64,000 nt of DNA from Methylomarinovum tepidoasis. Lineage in GTDB: Bacteria > Pseudomonadota > Gammaproteobacteria > Methylococcales > Methylothermaceae. The position numbers and the translations under genes are program-made. The notes under the pieces are model-generated. The model searched no databases. It saw only the letters and a program-made list of their open reading frames with translations, and was not told where the DNA came from. Of this stretch, positions 6,169 to 14,625 are shown in pieces (the stretch's first letter is position 1; each line of letters starts with the position of its first letter). The DNA lies in NCBI RefSeq assembly GCF_030294985.1, contig NZ_AP024718.1, positions 1,875,001 through 1,939,000 on the forward strand, written 5' to 3'.

Positions 6169-7452
6169 ATGACCCAAGTCGAACTTTTGTCCCCCGCCGG
6201 TACGTTGCGGCACATGCGTTATGCCTTCGCTTACGGCGCCGATGCGGTTTACGCTGGCCTGCCGCGTTACAGCCTCAGGGTGCGCAACAACGATTTCACT
6301 CTGGCCAATCTCGAAACGGGAATCGCCGAGGCCCACGCCCAGGGTAGGAAATTCTACCTGGCCGCCAACGTGTTGCCCCACAACGGCAAGGTCAAGACCT
6401 TCGTCAAGGATTTCCACCCCATCGTCGAGGCCGGACCCGACGCCCTCATCATGGCCGATCCGGGGTTGATCCTGCAGGTCCGGGAAACCTGGCCAGAGAT
6501 GCCGATTCACCTCTCGGTGCAGGCCAACACCATGAATTATGCGGCGGTGTGTTTTTGGCAACGGTTGGGGATCGAACGCATCATTCTGTCGCGGGAACTG
6601 TCCCTGGACGAGATCGCTGAGATTCGCCAGCGCTGTCCCGACGTCGAACTGGAAGTGTTCGTCCACGGCGCGCTGTGCATCGCCTATTCCGGCCGTTGCC
6701 TGCTGTCCGGTTACTTCAACCGCCGCGATCCCAATCAGGGCACCTGCACCAATGCTTGCCGCTGGGAGTACCGGGTCAAACCCGCCGGGGCAAGCGGGGG
6801 GCAGCGCCATCCGGCAGCCGACCGCACCTACCTGCTCGAGGATCCCGGTCGCCCCGGTGAGTACATGCCGATTCTGGAGGATGAACATGGCACTTACATC
6901 CTCAATTCCAAAGATTTGCGCGCGGTGGAGCACGTCCACAAGTTGGTGGCGCTGGGGATCGACTGCCTCAAGATCGAGGGCCGGACCAAATCCCACTACT
7001 ACGTCGCCCGCACCGCTCAGGTTTATCGCCAGGCGATCGACGATGCGCTCGCCGGCCGCCCGTTCGATTCCCGTCTCATCGGCGTGCTCGAAAATCTCGC
7101 CAACCGCGGTTATACTGACGGTTTCTATCAGCGCCATCACAGCCACGAATACCAGAACTATCTCCAGGGGGCTTCCCGCAGTCACCGTCAGCAGTTCGTC
7201 GGTGAGGTGGAGGATTACGATCCCGCCAGCGGCAAGGCTCAGCTTCTGATCAAGAACAAGCTGCGCCGGGGCGACCGCATCGAATGGATTTCACCCGCCG
7301 GCAACCGCGATCTGACGGTGGACCATCTGGAGGATCTGGAGGGAAACGCCCTGGAGGAAGCACCTGGCGCCGGCTGGCGGGTCCGGCTTCAGGTTCCCTC
7401 GGCGGGGCGTTACGATCTGGTGGCGCGTTATCTGGAAGGCATCGTACCCTGA
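6169..7452 (+). CDS. trhP: U32-family tRNA hydroxylation protein TrhP (YegQ-like)
   Basis: This 427-residue protein belongs to the peptidase U32 family, YegQ/TrhP branch. TrhP takes part in prephenate-dependent 5-hydroxylation of wobble uridine in tRNAs. It opens with ELLSPAGTL, as expected, and has the cysteine-bearing U32 signature from about residue 166 (HGALCIAYSGRCLLSGY, then GTCTNACRW), which ligates an Fe-S cluster in the family. The C-terminal beta-barrel region (GDRIEWISPAGN) is present. Transcription diverges from cysM. The ATG follows an AT-rich intergenic stretch. Confidence 0.9.
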   Translation: MTQVELLSPAGTLRHMRYAFAYGADAVYAGLPRYSLRVRNNDFTLANLETGIAEAHAQGRKFYLAANVLPHNGKVKTFVKDFHPIVEAGPDALIMADPGLILQVRETWPEMPIHLSVQANTMNYAAVCFWQRLGIERIILSRELSLDEIAEIRQRCPDVELEVFVHGALCIAYSGRCLLSGYFNRRDPNQGTCTNACRWEYRVKPAGASGGQRHPAADRTYLLEDPGRPGEYMPILEDEHGTYILNSKDLRAVEHVHKLVALGIDCLKIEGRTKSHYYVARTAQVYRQAIDDALAGRPFDSRLIGVLENLANRGYTDGFYQRHHSHEYQNYLQGASRSHRQQFVGEVEDYDPASGKAQLLIKNKLRRGDRIEWISPAGNRDLTVDHLEDLEGNALEEAPGAGWRVRLQVPSAGRYDLVARYLEGIVP

Positions 7453-7548: not shown

Positions 7549-8223
7549 ATGAACGGATACGCAGATTCTCCCGTGGAGGCTGCGTTTTTTCTCGACCGCT
7601 GGTTGCGTCTGCAGCCGGTGGATCAACTCGATTCCTCTGCCGCCTGGTCCTTCCTGACCCGGGAAGTTCACCGCGATCCCCGCCGGCTGGTGCTGCACTT
7701 GGCCCGAATTCGCGTTGCTTGGGAGCTGGATGCGGAGGCGCTTTATGCTGCCCTTGTGGATCTGGTGCTGACCCTGGAAGGGCGGGGTCGCCGCTTGCAG
7801 CGCCGCATGATCCGGGGCACGAGAAAACGGCTGAGAGCGGAGCGCCGGCAGGTTCTGGAACGTTATCTTGCCGAACATCTGCCGCCGCAGTCCCTGCCGC
7901 TCTCCCCGCGTTCCGTCCTCCAGGCCGGCACCATCGGCGAGTTGCAGATAACCGCATCCGGTACCAAGTCGACAGCGGCGCAAGTCGATCTCGTCGAAGC
8001 CGCCCGGTCCTGTCTGGCGCTTGGCCAGCTGGAACAGGCCCGGGAACTGTTCGAGCAGAAATTGTTCGAGGAACCGGACTGCCAGGTGGCCCGCCAGGAG
8101 CTGCTGGTCATCTACCGCGCCCTCGATGATCGGAAAAATTTCGCCCGCCTGCACGCACATCTCCAAAGCCACGGTTGCCTGGACCCAGACTGGGAGGCGT
8201 TTCATACCGGGGCATTGTCATGA
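7549..8223 (+). CDS. Uncharacterised helical protein, TPR/FimV-like C-terminus
   Basis: The first gene of the small-GTPase operon encodes about 224 residues. I chose the ATG at 7549 because AGGGGAAG lies about eight bases upstream; a GTG at 7522 would add nine residues. I do not recognise a named family. Residues about 160-215 (VDLVEAARSCLALGQLEQAR then LFEEPDCQVARQELL) read like the TPR-type C-terminus of FimV-like proteins that mediate protein contacts. The centre is rich in arginine. There is no signal peptide or transmembrane segment. The stop overlaps the next start by four bases (ATGA), so it is co-translated with the regulator downstream. A scaffold role is only a guess. Confidence 0.7.
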   Translation: MNGYADSPVEAAFFLDRWLRLQPVDQLDSSAAWSFLTREVHRDPRRLVLHLARIRVAWELDAEALYAALVDLVLTLEGRGRRLQRRMIRGTRKRLRAERRQVLERYLAEHLPPQSLPLSPRSVLQAGTIGELQITASGTKSTAAQVDLVEAARSCLALGQLEQARELFEQKLFEEPDCQVARQELLVIYRALDDRKNFARLHAHLQSHGCLDPDWEAFHTGALS

Positions 8224-9224
8224 AAGTGATGCTTCAAGGCACTTCCAAGCGTTTTCTGCGCTTGCTGCGTCATCTGTTGGTTCGTGACTGCCGGTTGACG
8301 GTGGTCGAGGACCCTGAGGCTGCCGATGTCTGCCTGCTGGACTGGGACAGCCTGGGGGCGGCCGAGTTGCTCGAGCGTCACCGGCGTCGCTGGCCCCGTG
8401 TGCCGGTTCTACTGTTGGCGCTGAATCCGCCGACCCAGACGGGGCTGCCGTGGGTGCGAAAGCCTCTCCAGGCCGAATCGCTCTTGGACGCCCTGAAACA
8501 AATTTCCTCCCAAGCGGACGCGGCGGTGACTGAAGAGCCACCGACTGCTTCCGTTTCCGCCTCCAGGTCGATTTCGGTAAATTTCCGCCACTATGATCCG
8601 GAGCGATATCTGCAGGGGCCTTTAACCCGTGCCTGCCGTCAGGCCGTGATGACGGGTATCGCGCTGCGGGTGGAGACCGGCTGGGAGCCGATTCTGGTGT
8701 TTCCCAAGCCCAGGGTGATCCAGGTCGATACCGACGACAAGAAATTGCGGGCGTTTTGCCGCCTTCCATTGCAGAAGTTCTGCCAACTCTCCGGGGAAGC
8801 GGACCAGGGGCCGGCCATCGTGCCCGATCCGCAAATGCGACCGGGATGTTTTTCCGGCGCACACCAGCGAATGGACGCGTTCCTCTGGAAAGTTGCCTGG
8901 TGGAACGCCGGCGGCCGCCTGCCGATCTCGATTTCTCCTGAGCAATGCCTGCACCTGAGACGCTGGCCAAATCTGACCCGCTACTGGCATCCGCCCCAGG
9001 CGCTTCGTATCGCAGCAGCCTGGTATCGACAGGATATGTCGCCCCTTCGCCTGGCACGCATGGTGGGAAGCGCCGAGACGGTGGCCAGTTTCATCAGCGC
9101 CGCCAATGCGGTCGGCCTGGTAGAGGTGGTGGAAATACCCCAGGCATCCCGGCGGACGGGACCGCAGGCGCCCCCGGAAGGTCTCCTCAAACGGATCCTG
9201 AAACGACTTCGGAAAGCGGCGTGA
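8220..9224 (+). CDS. Uncharacterised regulator-like protein with receiver-like N-terminus
   Basis: The protein has 334 residues. The first 100 resemble a response-regulator fold (VMLQGTSKRFLRLL, then VCLLDWDS, then a VRKPLQAESLLDAL region like the K-P loop of receivers), but the acidic pocket is not fully conserved. A central part of unknown type follows. Near residues 270-315 (ALRIAAAWYRQDMSPLRLARMVGSAETV) there is a segment that could be a helix-turn-helix. The C-terminus is strongly basic. It overlaps the upstream gene by four bases and the GTPase gene by one base. It may play the part that DUF742 or sensor proteins play in conservon-type operons; this is inference from position. Confidence 0.65.
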   Translation: MKVMLQGTSKRFLRLLRHLLVRDCRLTVVEDPEAADVCLLDWDSLGAAELLERHRRRWPRVPVLLLALNPPTQTGLPWVRKPLQAESLLDALKQISSQADAAVTEEPPTASVSASRSISVNFRHYDPERYLQGPLTRACRQAVMTGIALRVETGWEPILVFPKPRVIQVDTDDKKLRAFCRLPLQKFCQLSGEADQGPAIVPDPQMRPGCFSGAHQRMDAFLWKVAWWNAGGRLPISISPEQCLHLRRWPNLTRYWHPPQALRIAAAWYRQDMSPLRLARMVGSAETVASFISAANAVGLVEVVEIPQASRRTGPQAPPEGLLKRILKRLRKAA

Positions 9225-9787
9225 TGAAGCCTGACAAGGTTTATGACAAACTGATTTTCACCGGTCCGGTCGGTGCCGGCAAGACCACCGCCATCGCCAG
9301 TATCAGCGACACGCCGCCAGTGCGTACCGATGCTTGTGCGACGGACATGACCTTGGCGCGCAAGCCGGAGACGACGGTGGCGCTGGATTACGGGGTGCTC
9401 CGCCTGGACGACGGTAGCAAGCTGCATCTGTACGGCACTCCGGGTCAGGAGCGCTTCGATTTCATGTGGGAGATCCTGATCCGGGGCGGGATCGGTCTGG
9501 TGCTGTTGCTGGACAACACCCGCCCCGATCCCTTTCAGGACATGCGCTTCTTTCTCCAGCGCTTCCGTTCCTTCATCGATGCCACCGGCGTGGTCGTCGG
9601 GGTGACCCGGATGGACCTCAAGGCGGCTCCGCCGCTGGAGTCCTATCACAAGTCCTTGGAGCAGCTGGGGCTTAGGGCCCCGGTCCTGGAGATCGATGCC
9701 CGCCGCCGGGAGGATGTGGCACTGTTGGTGCAGACGCTGTTGTTCCACCTGAATCCGGGTATCCTCATGGAGGAATCCGATGCTTGA
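9224..9787 (+). CDS. Small Ras-like GTPase, conservon CvnD/MglA type
   Basis: This 187-residue P-loop GTPase has the Walker A motif GPVGAGKT at residues 14-21, a switch II region GTPGQERFDFMW at 71-82, and TRMD at 128-131 in place of N/TKxD. The sequence around TVALDYGVLRLDD and FDFMWEILIRGG is strongly reminiscent of the CvnD GTPases of actinobacterial conservons and of MglA-like proteins, which act with roadblock/LC7 partners as polarity or signalling switches. It lies directly upstream of one probable and one certain roadblock protein, with overlaps of one base (upstream) and eight bases (downstream). Cytoplasmic, with no lipidation motif. The biochemical class is secure; the process it controls is unknown. 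Confidence 0.85.
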   Translation: MKPDKVYDKLIFTGPVGAGKTTAIASISDTPPVRTDACATDMTLARKPETTVALDYGVLRLDDGSKLHLYGTPGQERFDFMWEILIRGGIGLVLLLDNTRPDPFQDMRFFLQRFRSFIDATGVVVGVTRMDLKAAPPLESYHKSLEQLGLRAPVLEIDARRREDVALLVQTLLFHLNPGILMEESDA

Positions 9788-10400
9788 GAAAGAAATTTCC
9801 TACGCGCTGCCGACCCCTGCCGGTGCTTACTATGCCGTATCCACCGCAGAAAGCGATCCCCCCCGCAGGCTGTTGCGCCTGCTGCTGAGCCAGACCGAAT
9901 CCCCCCGTCTGTCCCCGGAGAAACTGCCGCAGGGGTGCGACCGGGAATGCTTCGAACGCATCCAGCGGATGGGTTGGTTGCAGTGGCTGGCCGAACCGTT
10001 GACGGTCATGGAGCAGCCGTTGGAAACGATCCTACCGGAGCTGTTGGCCCCCTTGAGTGACGGCGGCAAGGTGCTGTTGGCGGACGCGCAGGGATTTTAC
10101 ATCGGTTCCAACGGTTTTCCCCATGAGACCGCAGAGGAGTTGGCGGCGTTGAGTGCCGATTTTCTGGGTCTGCAACAGCGTTATCGGGGAGTGTTGCAGG
10201 GAAACCTGCATCTGAATGCGGAAGCCTGGGGGATCGTGGATGCCGGAGGTCACACCCGCCTGGGCGTTTGGCCGCTACACATCGGCAAGCACATTTTCGC
10301 CCTGGTGATGACCGGTATTCCCCATTTCAACCACCCTGATTTCGTTCAGCTGGTCTGGACCCTAATGACCCGTTACGCCCCGGCTTCCATCGTTTTGTAG
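9780..10400 (+). CDS. Divergent roadblock/LC7-like protein
   Basis: This 206-residue cytoplasmic protein overlaps the GTPase gene by eight bases. Residues about 80-205 look like a roadblock/LC7 fold: KVLLADAQGFYIGSNGFPHE followed by a helix (TAEELAALSADFLGL) and later strands (HIFALVMTG). The N-terminal 80 residues are not recognised. Roadblock proteins bind and regulate small GTPases (MglB, CvnB), so the neighbour is the obvious partner. The assignment rests on pattern and context rather than a strong signature. Confidence 0.6.
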   Translation: MLEKEISYALPTPAGAYYAVSTAESDPPRRLLRLLLSQTESPRLSPEKLPQGCDRECFERIQRMGWLQWLAEPLTVMEQPLETILPELLAPLSDGGKVLLADAQGFYIGSNGFPHETAEELAALSADFLGLQQRYRGVLQGNLHLNAEAWGIVDAGGHTRLGVWPLHIGKHIFALVMTGIPHFNHPDFVQLVWTLMTRYAPASIVL

Positions 10401-10426
10401 AACCCACGATCACAGAGGATATGACC

Positions 10427-10789
10427 ATGCGTGAACAAATGTTGACCTCCATTCTGAATGAGCTGAACGGAACCTCGGCGGATATCGAGGCTTCCGGTGT
10501 CATTTCCATCGATGGCCTGATGATGGCGGCGGTCCTGCCCCAGGGGATGGATGAGGATCGTGTCGGGGCCATGAGTGCGGCGATGTTGTCGCTGGGGGAC
10601 AGGACCGCCCAGGAACTGGCGCGCGGCGAACTGGAACAGGTGCTCATCAAGGGGGACAAGGGCTACGTGCTCATGACCCACGCAGGACGGGAGGCGGTGT
10701 TGACCGTGCTCGCCAAACCCCAGGCCAAGCTCGGACTCATTTTCCTCGATGTCAAGCGGGCCGCTGAGAACATTGCCCAGTTGATCTGA
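10427..10789 (+). CDS. Roadblock/LC7 domain protein
   Basis: This protein of about 120 residues is a stand-alone roadblock/LC7 domain. It shows the helix MLTSILNELNG, the strand pair ASGVISIDGLMMAAVLP, an Ala/Met-rich helix (AMSAAMLSLGDRTAQEL), the strand GYVLMTHAG, and a last strand and helix (AKLGLIFLDVKRAAENIAQLI). These resemble the archetypal bacterial GTPase-regulating family. The ATG at 10427 is preferred over 10421 because AGAGGA is then about eight bases upstream. It probably pairs with the adjacent CvnD/MglA-like GTPase as homodimer or heterodimer with the preceding roadblock-like protein (inference). Confidence 0.85.
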   Translation: MREQMLTSILNELNGTSADIEASGVISIDGLMMAAVLPQGMDEDRVGAMSAAMLSLGDRTAQELARGELEQVLIKGDKGYVLMTHAGREAVLTVLAKPQAKLGLIFLDVKRAAENIAQLI

Positions 10790-10800
10790 GGGAAGCGGAA

Positions 10801-11295
10801 ATGTTGCAGGATATGGATCCAGCCGATGTGAAAGGTGAATATCGGGAATACACACTGGAATTGTATGGTGTGGGGCCCCGCAAGGTTCTGGTCACCGATG
10901 AGGAGGTGCCTTATCCCGACGGTCGCCTGATCGTCTCCCGCACCGACACCGACGGTATCATCACCCATGTGAACCGCTCTTTCGTGGTCATGTCCGGCTA
11001 TGAAGAGGAAGAGCTGATCGGGGCGCCCCATTCCATCCTGCGCCACCCGGACATGCCGAAGGCGGCGTTTCGGGATCTGTGGGCTACGGTCCAGCGCGGC
11101 GATATCTGGCAGGGATACGTCAAGAATCTACGCAAGGACGGAGCCTATTATTGGGTCAAGGCGACAGTCATCCCCAATATCCGGGGTGGCCAGGTTGTCG
11201 GTTATACTTCGGTGCGGCGCAAGCCGGATCGGCGCAAGGTCGAGGAATGCATCGACTTGTATGCCAGGATGCGACAAGAGGAGGCGGCAACATGA
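10801..11295 (+). CDS. Aer-like PAS domain protein
   Basis: The 164-residue protein is a single PAS domain close to the N-terminus of the aerotaxis receptor Aer. Diagnostic stretches are THVNRSFVVMSGYEEEELIG, PHSILRHPDMPKAAF, and GYVKNLRKDGAYYWV followed by GYTSVRRKP. In Aer this type of PAS binds FAD and senses redox state or oxygen. No output domain follows, so the signal must be passed to a partner, presumably the roadblock/GTPase pair encoded just upstream. Its stop overlaps the next start by four bases. FAD binding is inferred from the motif only. Confidence 0.85.
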   Translation: MLQDMDPADVKGEYREYTLELYGVGPRKVLVTDEEVPYPDGRLIVSRTDTDGIITHVNRSFVVMSGYEEEELIGAPHSILRHPDMPKAAFRDLWATVQRGDIWQGYVKNLRKDGAYYWVKATVIPNIRGGQVVGYTSVRRKPDRRKVEECIDLYARMRQEEAAT

Positions 11296-12047
11296 GCTAT
11301 ACCTTCACGGTGAGTCCCGATTTCAGTCCCGACTATATCGCCGGCTGGTTCGTGTTCAATACCTGGTTGCAGCGGACCCTGGAAACCGGATTCCATCTGG
11401 AGCTGATGGATGATTTCGACAGCCTGCACAACGCCATCAGGCAGGACCGGATCGATCTCGTTTACGCCAATCCCTACGATGCCGCCATGCTGGTGCGGGA
11501 GAAGGGTTTCACCGCTTTGGTCAAGCCCCGGGGCGGTGCCGACGAGGCGCTGATCGCCGTGGCGGCGGAAAGTGAGACGAGGGCGGTGGAAGACCTGCCG
11601 GAGGGAGCACGGATTGCCGCTACGGACGACCCGGACGTCCAGCTGATGGGGATGATCCTGTTGGAGCCGGCAGGTTTGGGGAAGGACAACACCGTGCGGG
11701 TGGAATGCGATAATTACGTGCTGGTCGCTAAGCGGCTGCTGACAGGGGAGAGCGACGCCGGCATCTTCCTCACCAAGGCTTTCGACGAGCTGAGTCGGCC
11801 GGTACGGGAAAGGCTGAAGGTGCTGGTCCGCAGTGACATCCAGGTCATTCATCATTATCTGATGGCAGGGCCCAGGATCGCCGATTTGCACCCGAAATTG
11901 CAGAAGGCGCTGGTGAATATGGGGGAGGCGCCGAAGACGGTCCGGATTCTGGAACAGCTGAAGCTGCCCGGTTGGGACCCGGTCGATCCTGAGGAGGTCG
12001 AATTCATGATCGATCTGATGGAAACGCTGAAATTCAGCCCAGCCTAA
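11292..12047 (+). CDS. PhnD-like periplasmic-binding-fold protein lacking signal peptide
   Basis: This 251-residue protein has the type 2 periplasmic-binding fold of the PhnD family: VSPDFSPDYIAGWFVFNTWL at the N-terminus, then DLVYANPYDAAMLVREKGFTALV, and DAGIFLTKAFDEL. PhnD-type proteins bind phosphonate, phosphite or related anions for ABC transporters. Here there is no signal peptide and no permease or ATPase nearby, so it is probably a cytoplasmic ligand sensor within the GTPase operon. It overlaps the PAS gene by four bases. The ligand is unknown, and a transport role is not supported. Confidence 0.75.
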   Translation: MSYTFTVSPDFSPDYIAGWFVFNTWLQRTLETGFHLELMDDFDSLHNAIRQDRIDLVYANPYDAAMLVREKGFTALVKPRGGADEALIAVAAESETRAVEDLPEGARIAATDDPDVQLMGMILLEPAGLGKDNTVRVECDNYVLVAKRLLTGESDAGIFLTKAFDELSRPVRERLKVLVRSDIQVIHHYLMAGPRIADLHPKLQKALVNMGEAPKTVRILEQLKLPGWDPVDPEEVEFMIDLMETLKFSPA

Positions 12048-13161: not shown

Positions 13162-14625
13162 ATGCAGGCAAGCGAAATCTACGTACAGAATCTGGAGCGC
13201 CACCTCGCCCAGGAAAATCCCCTGCTGGTGGACGTAGCCAAGAATTTCCAGACGATCGACAAGGTCGCCAACAGCTTGGGGCTGTTGCGTTCGGACCAAT
13301 CCACCGCTCGCCAGATTCCCTGGTGGCCGCTGGTTTCGGTGCTCGGCCTGTTCTCTTCCGGCAAGTCCACCTTCATCAATCATTTCCTGGGACAGAAGGT
13401 GCAGCGCAGCGGGGTGCAGGCGGTGGACGACAAATTCACCGTGCTTTGTTACAGCCCCGATCCCGAGGTCAAGACTCTGCCCGGTCTGGCCCTGGACGTC
13501 GATCCCCGCTTCCCGTTCTACCGCATCAGCCAGGAGATCGAGGAAGCGATGGAGGGCGAGGGCAAGCGCATCAACGCCTATCTGCAGCTGAAAACCTGCA
13601 ACAGCGAGAACCTCAAGGGCAAGATTCTGATCGATTCGCCCGGTTTCGACGCCGATGCCCAGCGCAGTGCCACGTTGCGGATCACCAAGCACATCATCGA
13701 CATTTCCGATCTGGTGCTGATCTTCTTCGACGCCCGGCGGCCGGAACCGGGGGCGATGCGCGACACCCTCGAATACCTGGTCAAGACCTCGGTCGATCGC
13801 CATGATTCGGAAAAGTTCATCTACATCCTCAACCAGATCGACGTGACCGCCCGCGAGGACAGTCTCGCCGAGGTGGTGGCGGCCTGGAAGAGCGCCCTGG
13901 CCGAGCGCGGTTTGAACGTGACCCACTTCTACACCATCTTTTCGCCGGAAGTGGAGATCAACTGCGACAACGACTACGTCAAGCAGCGCCTGATCGCCCG
14001 GCGTGACCGGGATCTGGAGGAAATTCACCGCCGCATCAAACAAGTGGAGGTCAAGCGTGCTTACCGGGTGCTGAGCACCCTGGACCAGACCGCCAAGGAA
14101 CTGAAGGACCAGGCGATTCCCGAGCTGGTGAAAGCGCTCACCGGCTGGCGCAACTGGACCCTGCGGCTCGACACGCTGATACTGGCGGCCCTGATCGGGG
14201 CGGTGGTGTTCGGTGGTGTCACCACCGGTTTCTGGTTCAATCCCCTGGCCGATGCCATCGCCGCCGGCGCCGGCCTGGTGATCCTGGGGATCTTCCATTG
14301 GCTGTTCTCCAGTATCTTCAAGGCGATCTACCGCCGCCGGCTGGCGCGTCGGCAAAAGCAATTGGGGTTGCGTTTCAATCTGGTGCGCGCCTTCAATCAG
14401 TGCGCCAACTGGCGCCTGTTCGCCACCGGCAAGATCAGGGGCTGGAGCGACAAGGTCGGCGAGGAGCTGGAAAAGATCGTCAATCAGGCCGACATTCTGA
14501 TCCAGCGTCTCAACGATCAGATGACCAACCCCTCCGGGGAGAGCTCGGCCAAAAAGGAAACGGAGAAGCCGGCAGTGGCCGAAGCGGCCAAGGCCGAGCC
14601 GGTCGCCGCCGCCCCAGTTTCCTGA
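13162..14625 (+). CDS. Dynamin-like membrane GTPase
   Basis: The 487-residue protein has a P-loop LFSSGKST at about residues 63-70, a G3 motif DSPGFDAD near 156, and NQID (G4) near 215. A hydrophobic hairpin spans about residues 332-380, and a charged Ala/Glu/Lys-rich tail ends the protein. This order (GTPase, helical stalk, paired membrane segments) fits bacterial dynamin-like proteins, some of which remodel or tether membranes. It stands alone between a divergent CDF gene and a convergent pfp gene, and ends in a strong bidirectional terminator. It is distinct from the GTPase pair at 58.8-62.1 kb. The specific role is unknown. Confidence 0.75.
   Translation: MQASEIYVQNLERHLAQENPLLVDVAKNFQTIDKVANSLGLLRSDQSTARQIPWWPLVSVLGLFSSGKSTFINHFLGQKVQRSGVQAVDDKFTVLCYSPDPEVKTLPGLALDVDPRFPFYRISQEIEEAMEGEGKRINAYLQLKTCNSENLKGKILIDSPGFDADAQRSATLRITKHIIDISDLVLIFFDARRPEPGAMRDTLEYLVKTSVDRHDSEKFIYILNQIDVTAREDSLAEVVAAWKSALAERGLNVTHFYTIFSPEVEINCDNDYVKQRLIARRDRDLEEIHRRIKQVEVKRAYRVLSTLDQTAKELKDQAIPELVKALTGWRNWTLRLDTLILAALIGAVVFGGVTTGFWFNPLADAIAAGAGLVILGIFHWLFSSIFKAIYRRRLARRQKQLGLRFNLVRAFNQCANWRLFATGKIRGWSDKVGEELEKIVNQADILIQRLNDQMTNPSGESSAKKETEKPAVAEAAKAEPVAAAPVS

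Follow-up and report, generated by a model that had tools for sequence, protein, structure and literature searches.

Seven adjacent genes on the forward strand of contig NZ_AP024718.1 of the methane-oxidising bacterium Methylomarinovum tepidoasis raise the question of which signalling system they encode: at positions 7549–12047 of the window, i.e. of the 64,000-nt stretch of DNA that was analysed and to which all coordinates refer, a small GTPase of the MglA family and two roadblock proteins are encoded together with a PAS protein and a PhnD-fold protein. An earlier note on this DNA had read the locus as a conservon-like core with a redox or oxygen input and a small-anion input, and had suggested that it may be a new GTPase-based signalling unit.

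Here, we have found that the operon is a real, conserved signalling unit, in which a known GTPase core is joined to a conserved sensory extension. Judged by its sequence, the core falls into Group 3 of the MglA systems, a kind that was described in 2014 by Wuichet and Sogaard-Andersen (PMC4316618; this and the other papers cited below are represented by the available part of their text), so that the suggested novelty does not extend to it; the sensory extension, i.e. the PAS–PhnD pair next to a roadblock GTPase, is the part that stands, with no description found in the open-licence literature searched, the supplement of PMC4316618 lying outside that search. Compared with the described Group 3 core, the new features are a FimV-like TPR protein at the head of the operon, and, at its tail, an Aer-like PAS next to a protein of the PhnD fold that is devoid of a signal peptide.

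Gene order and conservation of the operon

All seven open frames have been confirmed and, as the earlier note had stated, most of them overlap: four of the six gene junctions are overlaps, and the remaining two are gaps of 20 and 11 bases. That an MglA/roadblock switch is joined to PAS and PhnD-like genes is likewise borne out by family and fold matches. In Pfam, matches were obtained for the GTPase (ATP_bind_1, E-value 3.1e-12; Ras, 1.7e-6), the MglB-type roadblock (Robl_LC7, 1.1e-16), the PAS protein (PAS_3, 1.9e-14) and the PhnD-fold protein (Phosphonate-bd, PF12974, 1.2e-38); the matches of the TPR protein (0.0067) and of the second, divergent roadblock (0.089) are below the cut-off, and the receiver-like protein gave no match in the Pfam scan, these three assignments being backed by profile or fold evidence. 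No kinase or chemotaxis gene is found among the seven, in agreement with the earlier note.

The gene order, which the earlier note had proposed to look for in relatives, is co-conserved. In a set of named genomes that comprises the best 80 of 506 candidate loci, and that is not a random sample because it was picked by GTPase similarity, all seven genes are located on one strand and in the same order at 67 loci (66 exactly; locus L069 has an extra PAS–PhnD pair). This conservation is far beyond chance, and the lack of co-conservation by which the earlier note would have been refuted is thus contradicted. Among the incomplete loci, the sequence of four (L045, L053, L100 and L106) stops at most 153 bases past the last matched gene; two (L080 and L092) have no divergent roadblock within the 2.3 and 1.6 kb that are available past the GTPase gene; and seven (L037, L046, L048, L057, L062, L084 and L091) extend for at least 3 kb past the last core gene without a PAS–PhnD tail, L037 having its PhnD gene upstream instead of downstream, and L048 and L062 additionally lacking some of the core genes.

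The 80 loci come mostly from Methylococcales, with several from Thiothrix and two under betaproteobacterial names (L086 and L098); by GTPase, the closest named relatives are Methylothermaceae and other Methylococcales, although records that are very close to the window may be missing from this comparison. The complete set of seven genes is carried, among others, by Methylotuvimicrobium buryatense 5G (L095), a laboratory methanotroph. The mean identity to the window proteins, computed from alignments of 46 to 80 sequences per family (the window included, incomplete or off-length rows dropped), is highest for the MglB-type roadblock, the most conserved member (83%, over 45 relatives), followed by the PAS protein (69%), the GTPase (63%), the PhnD-fold protein (54%), the divergent roadblock (47%), the receiver-like protein (30%) and the TPR protein (27%).

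A class-wide sample of 229 genomes, less biased than the 80-locus set, contains the GTPase in 38 genomes (E-value 1e-20), the divergent roadblock in 25 (1e-12) and the PhnD-fold protein in 12 (1e-25). All 12 PhnD-positive genomes belong to the 25 in which the divergent roadblock occurs (Fisher p 1.6e-13, without correction for relatedness); the PhnD gene is located within the operon in ten of them, and elsewhere in two (G086 and G231). The core including the divergent roadblock is present in 18 of 47 GTPase stretches read from this sample, and the PAS–PhnD tail in eight of these 18.

The GTPase core and its roadblock and receiver partners

The GTPase (9224–9787, 187 residues) is a single small domain, below the 240 residues that delimit the group, and its best match among solved structures is “Gliding protein mglA” (3t12, 2.7e-8). 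Its motifs read GPVGAGKTT at G1, KPETTVALDYG at G2, GTPGQ at G3 (within YGTPGQER), TRMD at G4 (within GVTRMDL) and DAR at G5 (within EIDARRR). According to the available part of PMC4316618, the MglA proteins of Groups 2–5 have GTPGQ and no arginine at G2, those of Groups 2 and 3 often lack the lysine of G4 and have DAR at G5, and G4 of Group 2 is NxFD; in the same source, Group 3 genes are accompanied by a receiver plus winged-helix-like protein and by one or two MglBs, and the group, present in Neisseria, Stenotrophomonas and Xanthomonas, is almost confined to beta- and gammaproteobacteria.

All of the Group 3 motifs are found in the window GTPase, with G4 alone separating Group 3 from Group 2. 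The neighbouring protein has a receiver at its N-terminus (residues 1–108), and two roadblocks, the second recognised by its predicted fold, are located beside the GTPase, as fits the one or two MglBs of Group 3; beta/gamma confinement has been found for the divergent roadblock only, which occurs in 4 of 299 genomes of a phylum-wide sample, all of one class and with the genome under study counted. In a FastTree of 66 sequences, which includes 11 of the 80 named loci and carries neither support values nor a published reference alignment, the window GTPase groups with core proteins of beta- and gammaproteobacteria and with a piece from Neisseria, and the sequences of Streptomyces, Thermus and Deinococcus branch elsewhere. 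Since motifs, neighbours and distribution match Group 3, the core appears to be known in kind.

The same motifs, receiver-like partner, pair of roadblocks and beta/gamma distribution characterise the Group 3 loci of PMC4316618 and the mgl loci of Neisseria and Snodgrassella; in contrast, the PAS–PhnD tail and the protoglobin slots described below are additions of the present family. TPR, PAS and PhnD genes are not named for Group 3 in the available part of the text of PMC4316618, whose supplementary neighbourhood table may list them. A Neisseria gonorrhoeae record (L159) carries TPR, receiver, GTPase and both roadblock matches in the order of the window; its receiver, GTPase and divergent-roadblock matches are each split over at least two frames, as would be expected if the locus had decayed or been frameshifted. 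The Snodgrassella locus has been assigned to Group 3, and mutation of an orphan mglB altered colony spreading, an effect ascribed to pili (PMC11112851, available part); no further experiments on Group 3 MglA were found in the open-licence literature searched. Group 3 occurs in methanotrophs and Thiothrix, yet its experimental footing is thin as far as we have searched.

Membership in the conservons (CvnA–D, Group 2), to which the earlier note had likened the core, has been rejected. The actinobacterial conservons likewise combine an MglA-type GTPase with a roadblock in an operon, and GTPGQ and DAR are common to both; but CvnC (DUF742) has no match in the seven proteins, no CvnA-like histidine kinase is matched by these proteins or by the products of the four scanned flanking genes, G4 is TRMD instead of NxFD, and the GTPase branches with beta/gamma proteins, apart from two Streptomyces plasmid GTPases that were labelled CvnD from their roadblock and DUF742 neighbours. 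On a plasmid of Streptomyces sp. NBC_01717 (L163), a branched-chain amino acid binding-protein gene directly follows the conservon, in parallel to the PhnD association of the present operon.

Group 1 does not accommodate the GTPase either, given GTPGQ instead of TVPGQ and a G2 motif without arginine. The Group 1 system of Myxococcus xanthus, i.e. MglA, MglB and SgmX, likewise comprises a GTPase, a roadblock and a TPR protein, with pili as a possible common output; it differs in the TVPGQ motif and the G2 arginine, while in the present operon the sensors are encoded alongside the switch, and the TPR protein is FimV-like and has 224 residues, compared with the 1,060 residues of SgmX (PMC7519303, available part).

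The two roadblocks are unlike each other. The MglB-type protein (10421–10789, 122 residues) carries Asp31-Gly32, conserved at at least 97%, an Asp-Gly pair that has been noted for the MglBs of Groups 2–5 (PMC4316618, available part). The divergent roadblock (9780–10400, 206 residues, with an N-terminal extension of about 75 residues) matches an NCBIfam model in none of its 32 members, and is recognised by its predicted fold: the AlphaFold2 model, from 32 sequences, has a mean predicted local distance difference test (pLDDT) score of 91.6, its best Foldseek match is the M. xanthus MglB (1.1e-4, template-modelling scores 0.35/0.51), and VIA-align superposes it on roadblocks with up to Z 10.0, root-mean-square deviation (rmsd) 2.9 and 80 residues, most rows spanning residues 78–201. 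By this model, it is a true roadblock. Its conserved Asp102 and Gly105 are not adjacent, from which we infer a regulatory role rather than that of a GTPase-activating protein (GAP); the protein is probably the regulatory part of a heteromer.

The receiver-like protein (8220–9224, 334 residues) consists of an N-terminal receiver fold, a middle domain and a C-terminal helical region. Its AlphaFold2 model (pLDDT 89.1, predicted template-modelling score 0.61) is matched by receivers over residues 1–108 (Z 13.8, rmsd 2.6, 107 aligned). In an alignment of 28 sequences, the phosphorylation site is mostly kept, with the aspartate in 24, the lysine in 27, the serine in 25 and one acidic first-strand residue in 18; the window copy is without the serine and the first-strand acidic residue.

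The sensory extension

The PAS protein (10801–11295, 164 residues) is strongly Aer-like, as had been claimed: residues 33–154 match the Aerotaxis receptor 8dik with an E-value of 1.9e-36, and 3ewk, which is listed as Sensor protein and which we take to be MmoS, with 7.6e-29. On the strength of these similarities, it probably binds flavin adenine dinucleotide (FAD). It differs from the aerotaxis receptor Aer, whose PAS domain is very similar, in that it stands alone, with no receptor signalling domain.

The PhnD-fold protein (11292–12047, 251 residues) has the PF12974 fold in common with the periplasmic binding proteins PhnD and PtxB, but each of the 22 aligned sequences begins directly with the mature domain, with no signal peptide by alignment (no predictor was run), and the protein should therefore be cytoplasmic. 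Weak matches of its profile are to PtxB (1.8e-5), ArrX (0.0023) and a phosphonate-binding protein (0.0048). The Ser-Thr-Ser loop with which PtxB binds the oxyanion is replaced by a loop containing Pro-Asp-Val (the profile reads tddP..dv), which makes phosphonate or phosphite an improbable ligand. Transporter genes are absent from the scanned neighbours, the direct neighbours being the PAS gene and a convergent cation-efflux gene.

With no signal peptide, no adjacent transporter gene and an altered loop, a role in phosphonate or anion transport has been rejected, and the small-anion input of the earlier note is not supported, given the expected cytoplasmic location and the replaced loop; the protein is, by sequence, a probable cytoplasmic ligand sensor. 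Such a use of the PhnD fold is independently supported by fusions of a STAS domain to PhnD proteins of the present family at two loci (L037 and L183). Elsewhere in the 2.44-Mb genome, PF12974 is matched by just one open frame, a distant one of 592 residues, the region of which reads, by eye, like a set of binding protein, permease and ATPase. In genome G086 (L181), the PhnD-fold gene of the family adjoins an SCP2-domain gene, ahead of a gene for type II secretion protein C.

Gas or redox sensing recurs beside such switches: a protoglobin gene either separates the two roadblock genes or follows the second at 13 of 127 loci (4 of the 13 confirmed by Pfam); a Thermus brockianus plasmid has the order GTPase, protoglobin, unknown, roadblock, protoglobin, EAL; and in HGbRL of the methanotroph Methylacidiphilum, a globin is fused to a roadblock (PMC4476040, available part). 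HGbRL thus joins a haem sensor to a roadblock in one protein, whereas in the related operons the protoglobin has a gene of its own, which the window operon lacks. The conserved PAS–PhnD pair suggests that such switches can be driven by the redox or nutrient state of the cell and offers a concrete idea of their input, as the FimV-like TPR protein does of their output.

Possible outputs of the switch

The best explanation of the operon as a whole, to which we give about an even chance, is a path that leads from redox and ligand sensors through the roadblocks and the Group 3 GTPase to pili. The seven proteins would form one cytoplasmic signalling unit on the GTPase, in which the PAS protein would read the redox state via FAD and the PhnD-fold protein a cytoplasmic small molecule; the states of both would act on the roadblock pair, a putative heteromer of the MglB-type protein, with its Asp-Gly pair and possible GAP role, and the divergent, probably regulatory one, which through contact with the GTPase would set the duration of its GTP-bound state. 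The GTP-bound GTPase would then act via the TPR protein, towards the polar hub of the type IV pilus, and/or via the receiver-like protein; the likeliest output would be a change in how many type IV pili there are, at which pole they stand or how active they are, and attachment or twitching would thereby track redox state and nutrient supply. In favour of this explanation are the gene order kept at 67 of 80 loci, the restriction of PhnD to genomes with the divergent roadblock in the class-wide sample, the recurring protoglobin genes and the STAS–PhnD fusions. Gene content, order, families, predicted folds and co-occurrence have been observed, and FAD binding, ligand sensing, contact of roadblock and GTPase, the GAP role and the pilus output belong to the proposed model.

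Pilus control is ranked first, and transcription second, because of the FimV-like TPR module, a co-occurring PilT-family match and the precedent of SgmX. FimV is a polar hub of type IV pili, and the C-terminal 80 or so residues of the TPR protein (7549–8223, 224 residues) resemble its cytoplasmic TPR module. Among 22 FimV-core loci in relatives, the TPR-family profile matches 20, two of which are one protein (L184 and L204 gave no match), with 23.9–47.0 bits per domain and a median of 41.8; in a control with the same alignment on solved structures, the best chain, a designed-like four-repeat protein listed as putative kinesin light chain, reached 30.6 whole-sequence bits, and the rest at most 21.9. 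The hhalign comparison of the TPR family with FimV gives 98.2 percent over 81 columns, a score that is flattered because the FimV segments were chosen by the TPR profile itself. A PilT-family match is present in 38 of 38 GTPase-positive genomes and in 167 of 191 others (p 0.018), and in Myxococcus, MglA-GTP stimulates pili via the TPR protein SgmX (PMC7519303, available part). Also in favour are the effect of the Snodgrassella mglB mutation described above, the pilB-, pilC- and pilD-like genes that follow one locus (L115), and a bactofilin-family gene near 8 of 127 loci.

Several observations weigh against a pilus output, or against parts of the path that leads to it. The link with PilT is weak, and shared ancestry confounds it. 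Genes like pilB, pilC and pilD are found near only one of 127 loci (L115, among loci L032–L158), where they follow the operon and could, by Pfam, equally be homologues from type II secretion; a regular association with neighbouring pilus genes has accordingly been rejected, and no pilus gene is found among the four flanking genes scanned. TPR modules are common, and the TPR protein may be generic: in NCBIfam, its 30 relatives match LapB (7, best 2.6e-4), PilW (7, 0.0016) and FimV_Cterm (4, 0.007), while 8 touch PEP_TPR_lipo (best 0.0023), and the window protein itself has no NCBIfam FimV match; a generic identity is to be allowed for because the LapB and PilW models score better than FimV_Cterm. 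On the sensory side, the PAS–PhnD tail is missing from 10 of the 18 class-sample core loci, and is thus not essential to the switch. In genomes G161 and G205, which keep the receiver-like protein and the roadblocks, no GTPase gene separates the two and none was found at an E-value of 1e-20, so that the roadblocks may have partners beyond the GTPase; TPR–divergent-roadblock pairs also occur at L211, L212, L215 and L216, with no GTPase recognised in these stretches, and at L215 and L216 they are accompanied by a roadblock, a weak protoglobin match and a weak receiver match.

A less probable, though still appreciable, alternative keeps the same sensing side and places the output in gene expression, with the receiver-like protein binding DNA under the control of the GTPase and the roadblocks. 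The authors of the 2014 study suggested a transcription output for Group 3, which typically has a receiver plus winged-helix-like protein (PMC4316618, available part); here, the receiver fold has been confirmed, and the helix pattern of the C-terminal part is compatible with a winged helix, which it could be by the model. The matches that would identify such a domain are, however, rare and below threshold (MarR_2 in 2 of 28 members, best 0.055; HTH_20 in 1 of 28, 0.075), and the VIA-align and other fold searches, made with the whole protein and not with the C-terminal domain on its own, were filled by receivers, so that the C-terminal fold was barely probed.

A wider form of the pilus reading, which we regard as rather doubtful, sees in these operons modular Ras-like switches: interchangeable cytoplasmic sensors (flavin PAS, protoglobin, PhnD-fold) would act on a roadblock heteromer, and the GTPase would connect it to the FimV hub. 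This would amount to a kinase-free energy taxis by pili, with PhnD-fold sensors derived from transporter binding proteins.

We consider it improbable that the PhnD-fold and PAS proteins belong to a phosphorylation network of the RsbU/STAS kind, i.e. to a stress or partner-switch system that the MglA core only modulates. At L037 and L100, a gene for a PAS-SpoIIE phosphatase and, directly after it, a PhnD gene are located upstream of the core, and the PhnD protein of L037, like that of L183, carries STAS; but none of the seven proteins matches STAS or SpoIIE, and a PhnD gene precedes the TPR gene at only 2 of the 80 loci, among which SpoIIE was not surveyed. Equally improbable is that PAS and PhnD make up an independent sensor module of two genes, with only the promoter in common with the switch, as the duplication of the pair as a unit at L069 and its absence from 10 of the 18 class-sample core loci might suggest; against this stands the restriction of PhnD, in the class-wide sample, to genomes with the divergent roadblock (12 of 12), even where its gene is located elsewhere.

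The path from sensors through the GTPase to pili remains our preferred reading, and the remaining observations concern the surroundings of the operon and its relatives. Upstream, the operon is preceded by a U32 peptidase gene that ends at 7452, and downstream it is followed by the convergent cation-efflux gene; a scan for promoters and terminators gave nothing above chance expectation. A gene for a Dynamin_N GTPase is located nearby, at 13162–14625.

A bactofilin-family gene is found near 8 of the 127 loci (L088, L091, L093, L097, L099, L101, L105 and L116, five of them named Thiothrix; two of the genes were checked by Pfam), divergently oriented and four gene positions upstream of the GTPase gene. 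The operons of G205 (L180) and G161 (L210) consist of TPR, receiver-like and both roadblock genes, with no GTPase gene between the receiver-like and divergent-roadblock genes, and in L180 a further protein with a PhnD domain, about 400 residues long, is encoded between the roadblock genes. A second type of operon (L214, L215 and L216), in which no GTPase was seen, comprises a weak receiver-like match, a roadblock, a weak protoglobin-like match, a TPR protein and a divergent roadblock; genomes G137 and G263 carry it alongside the GTPase type.

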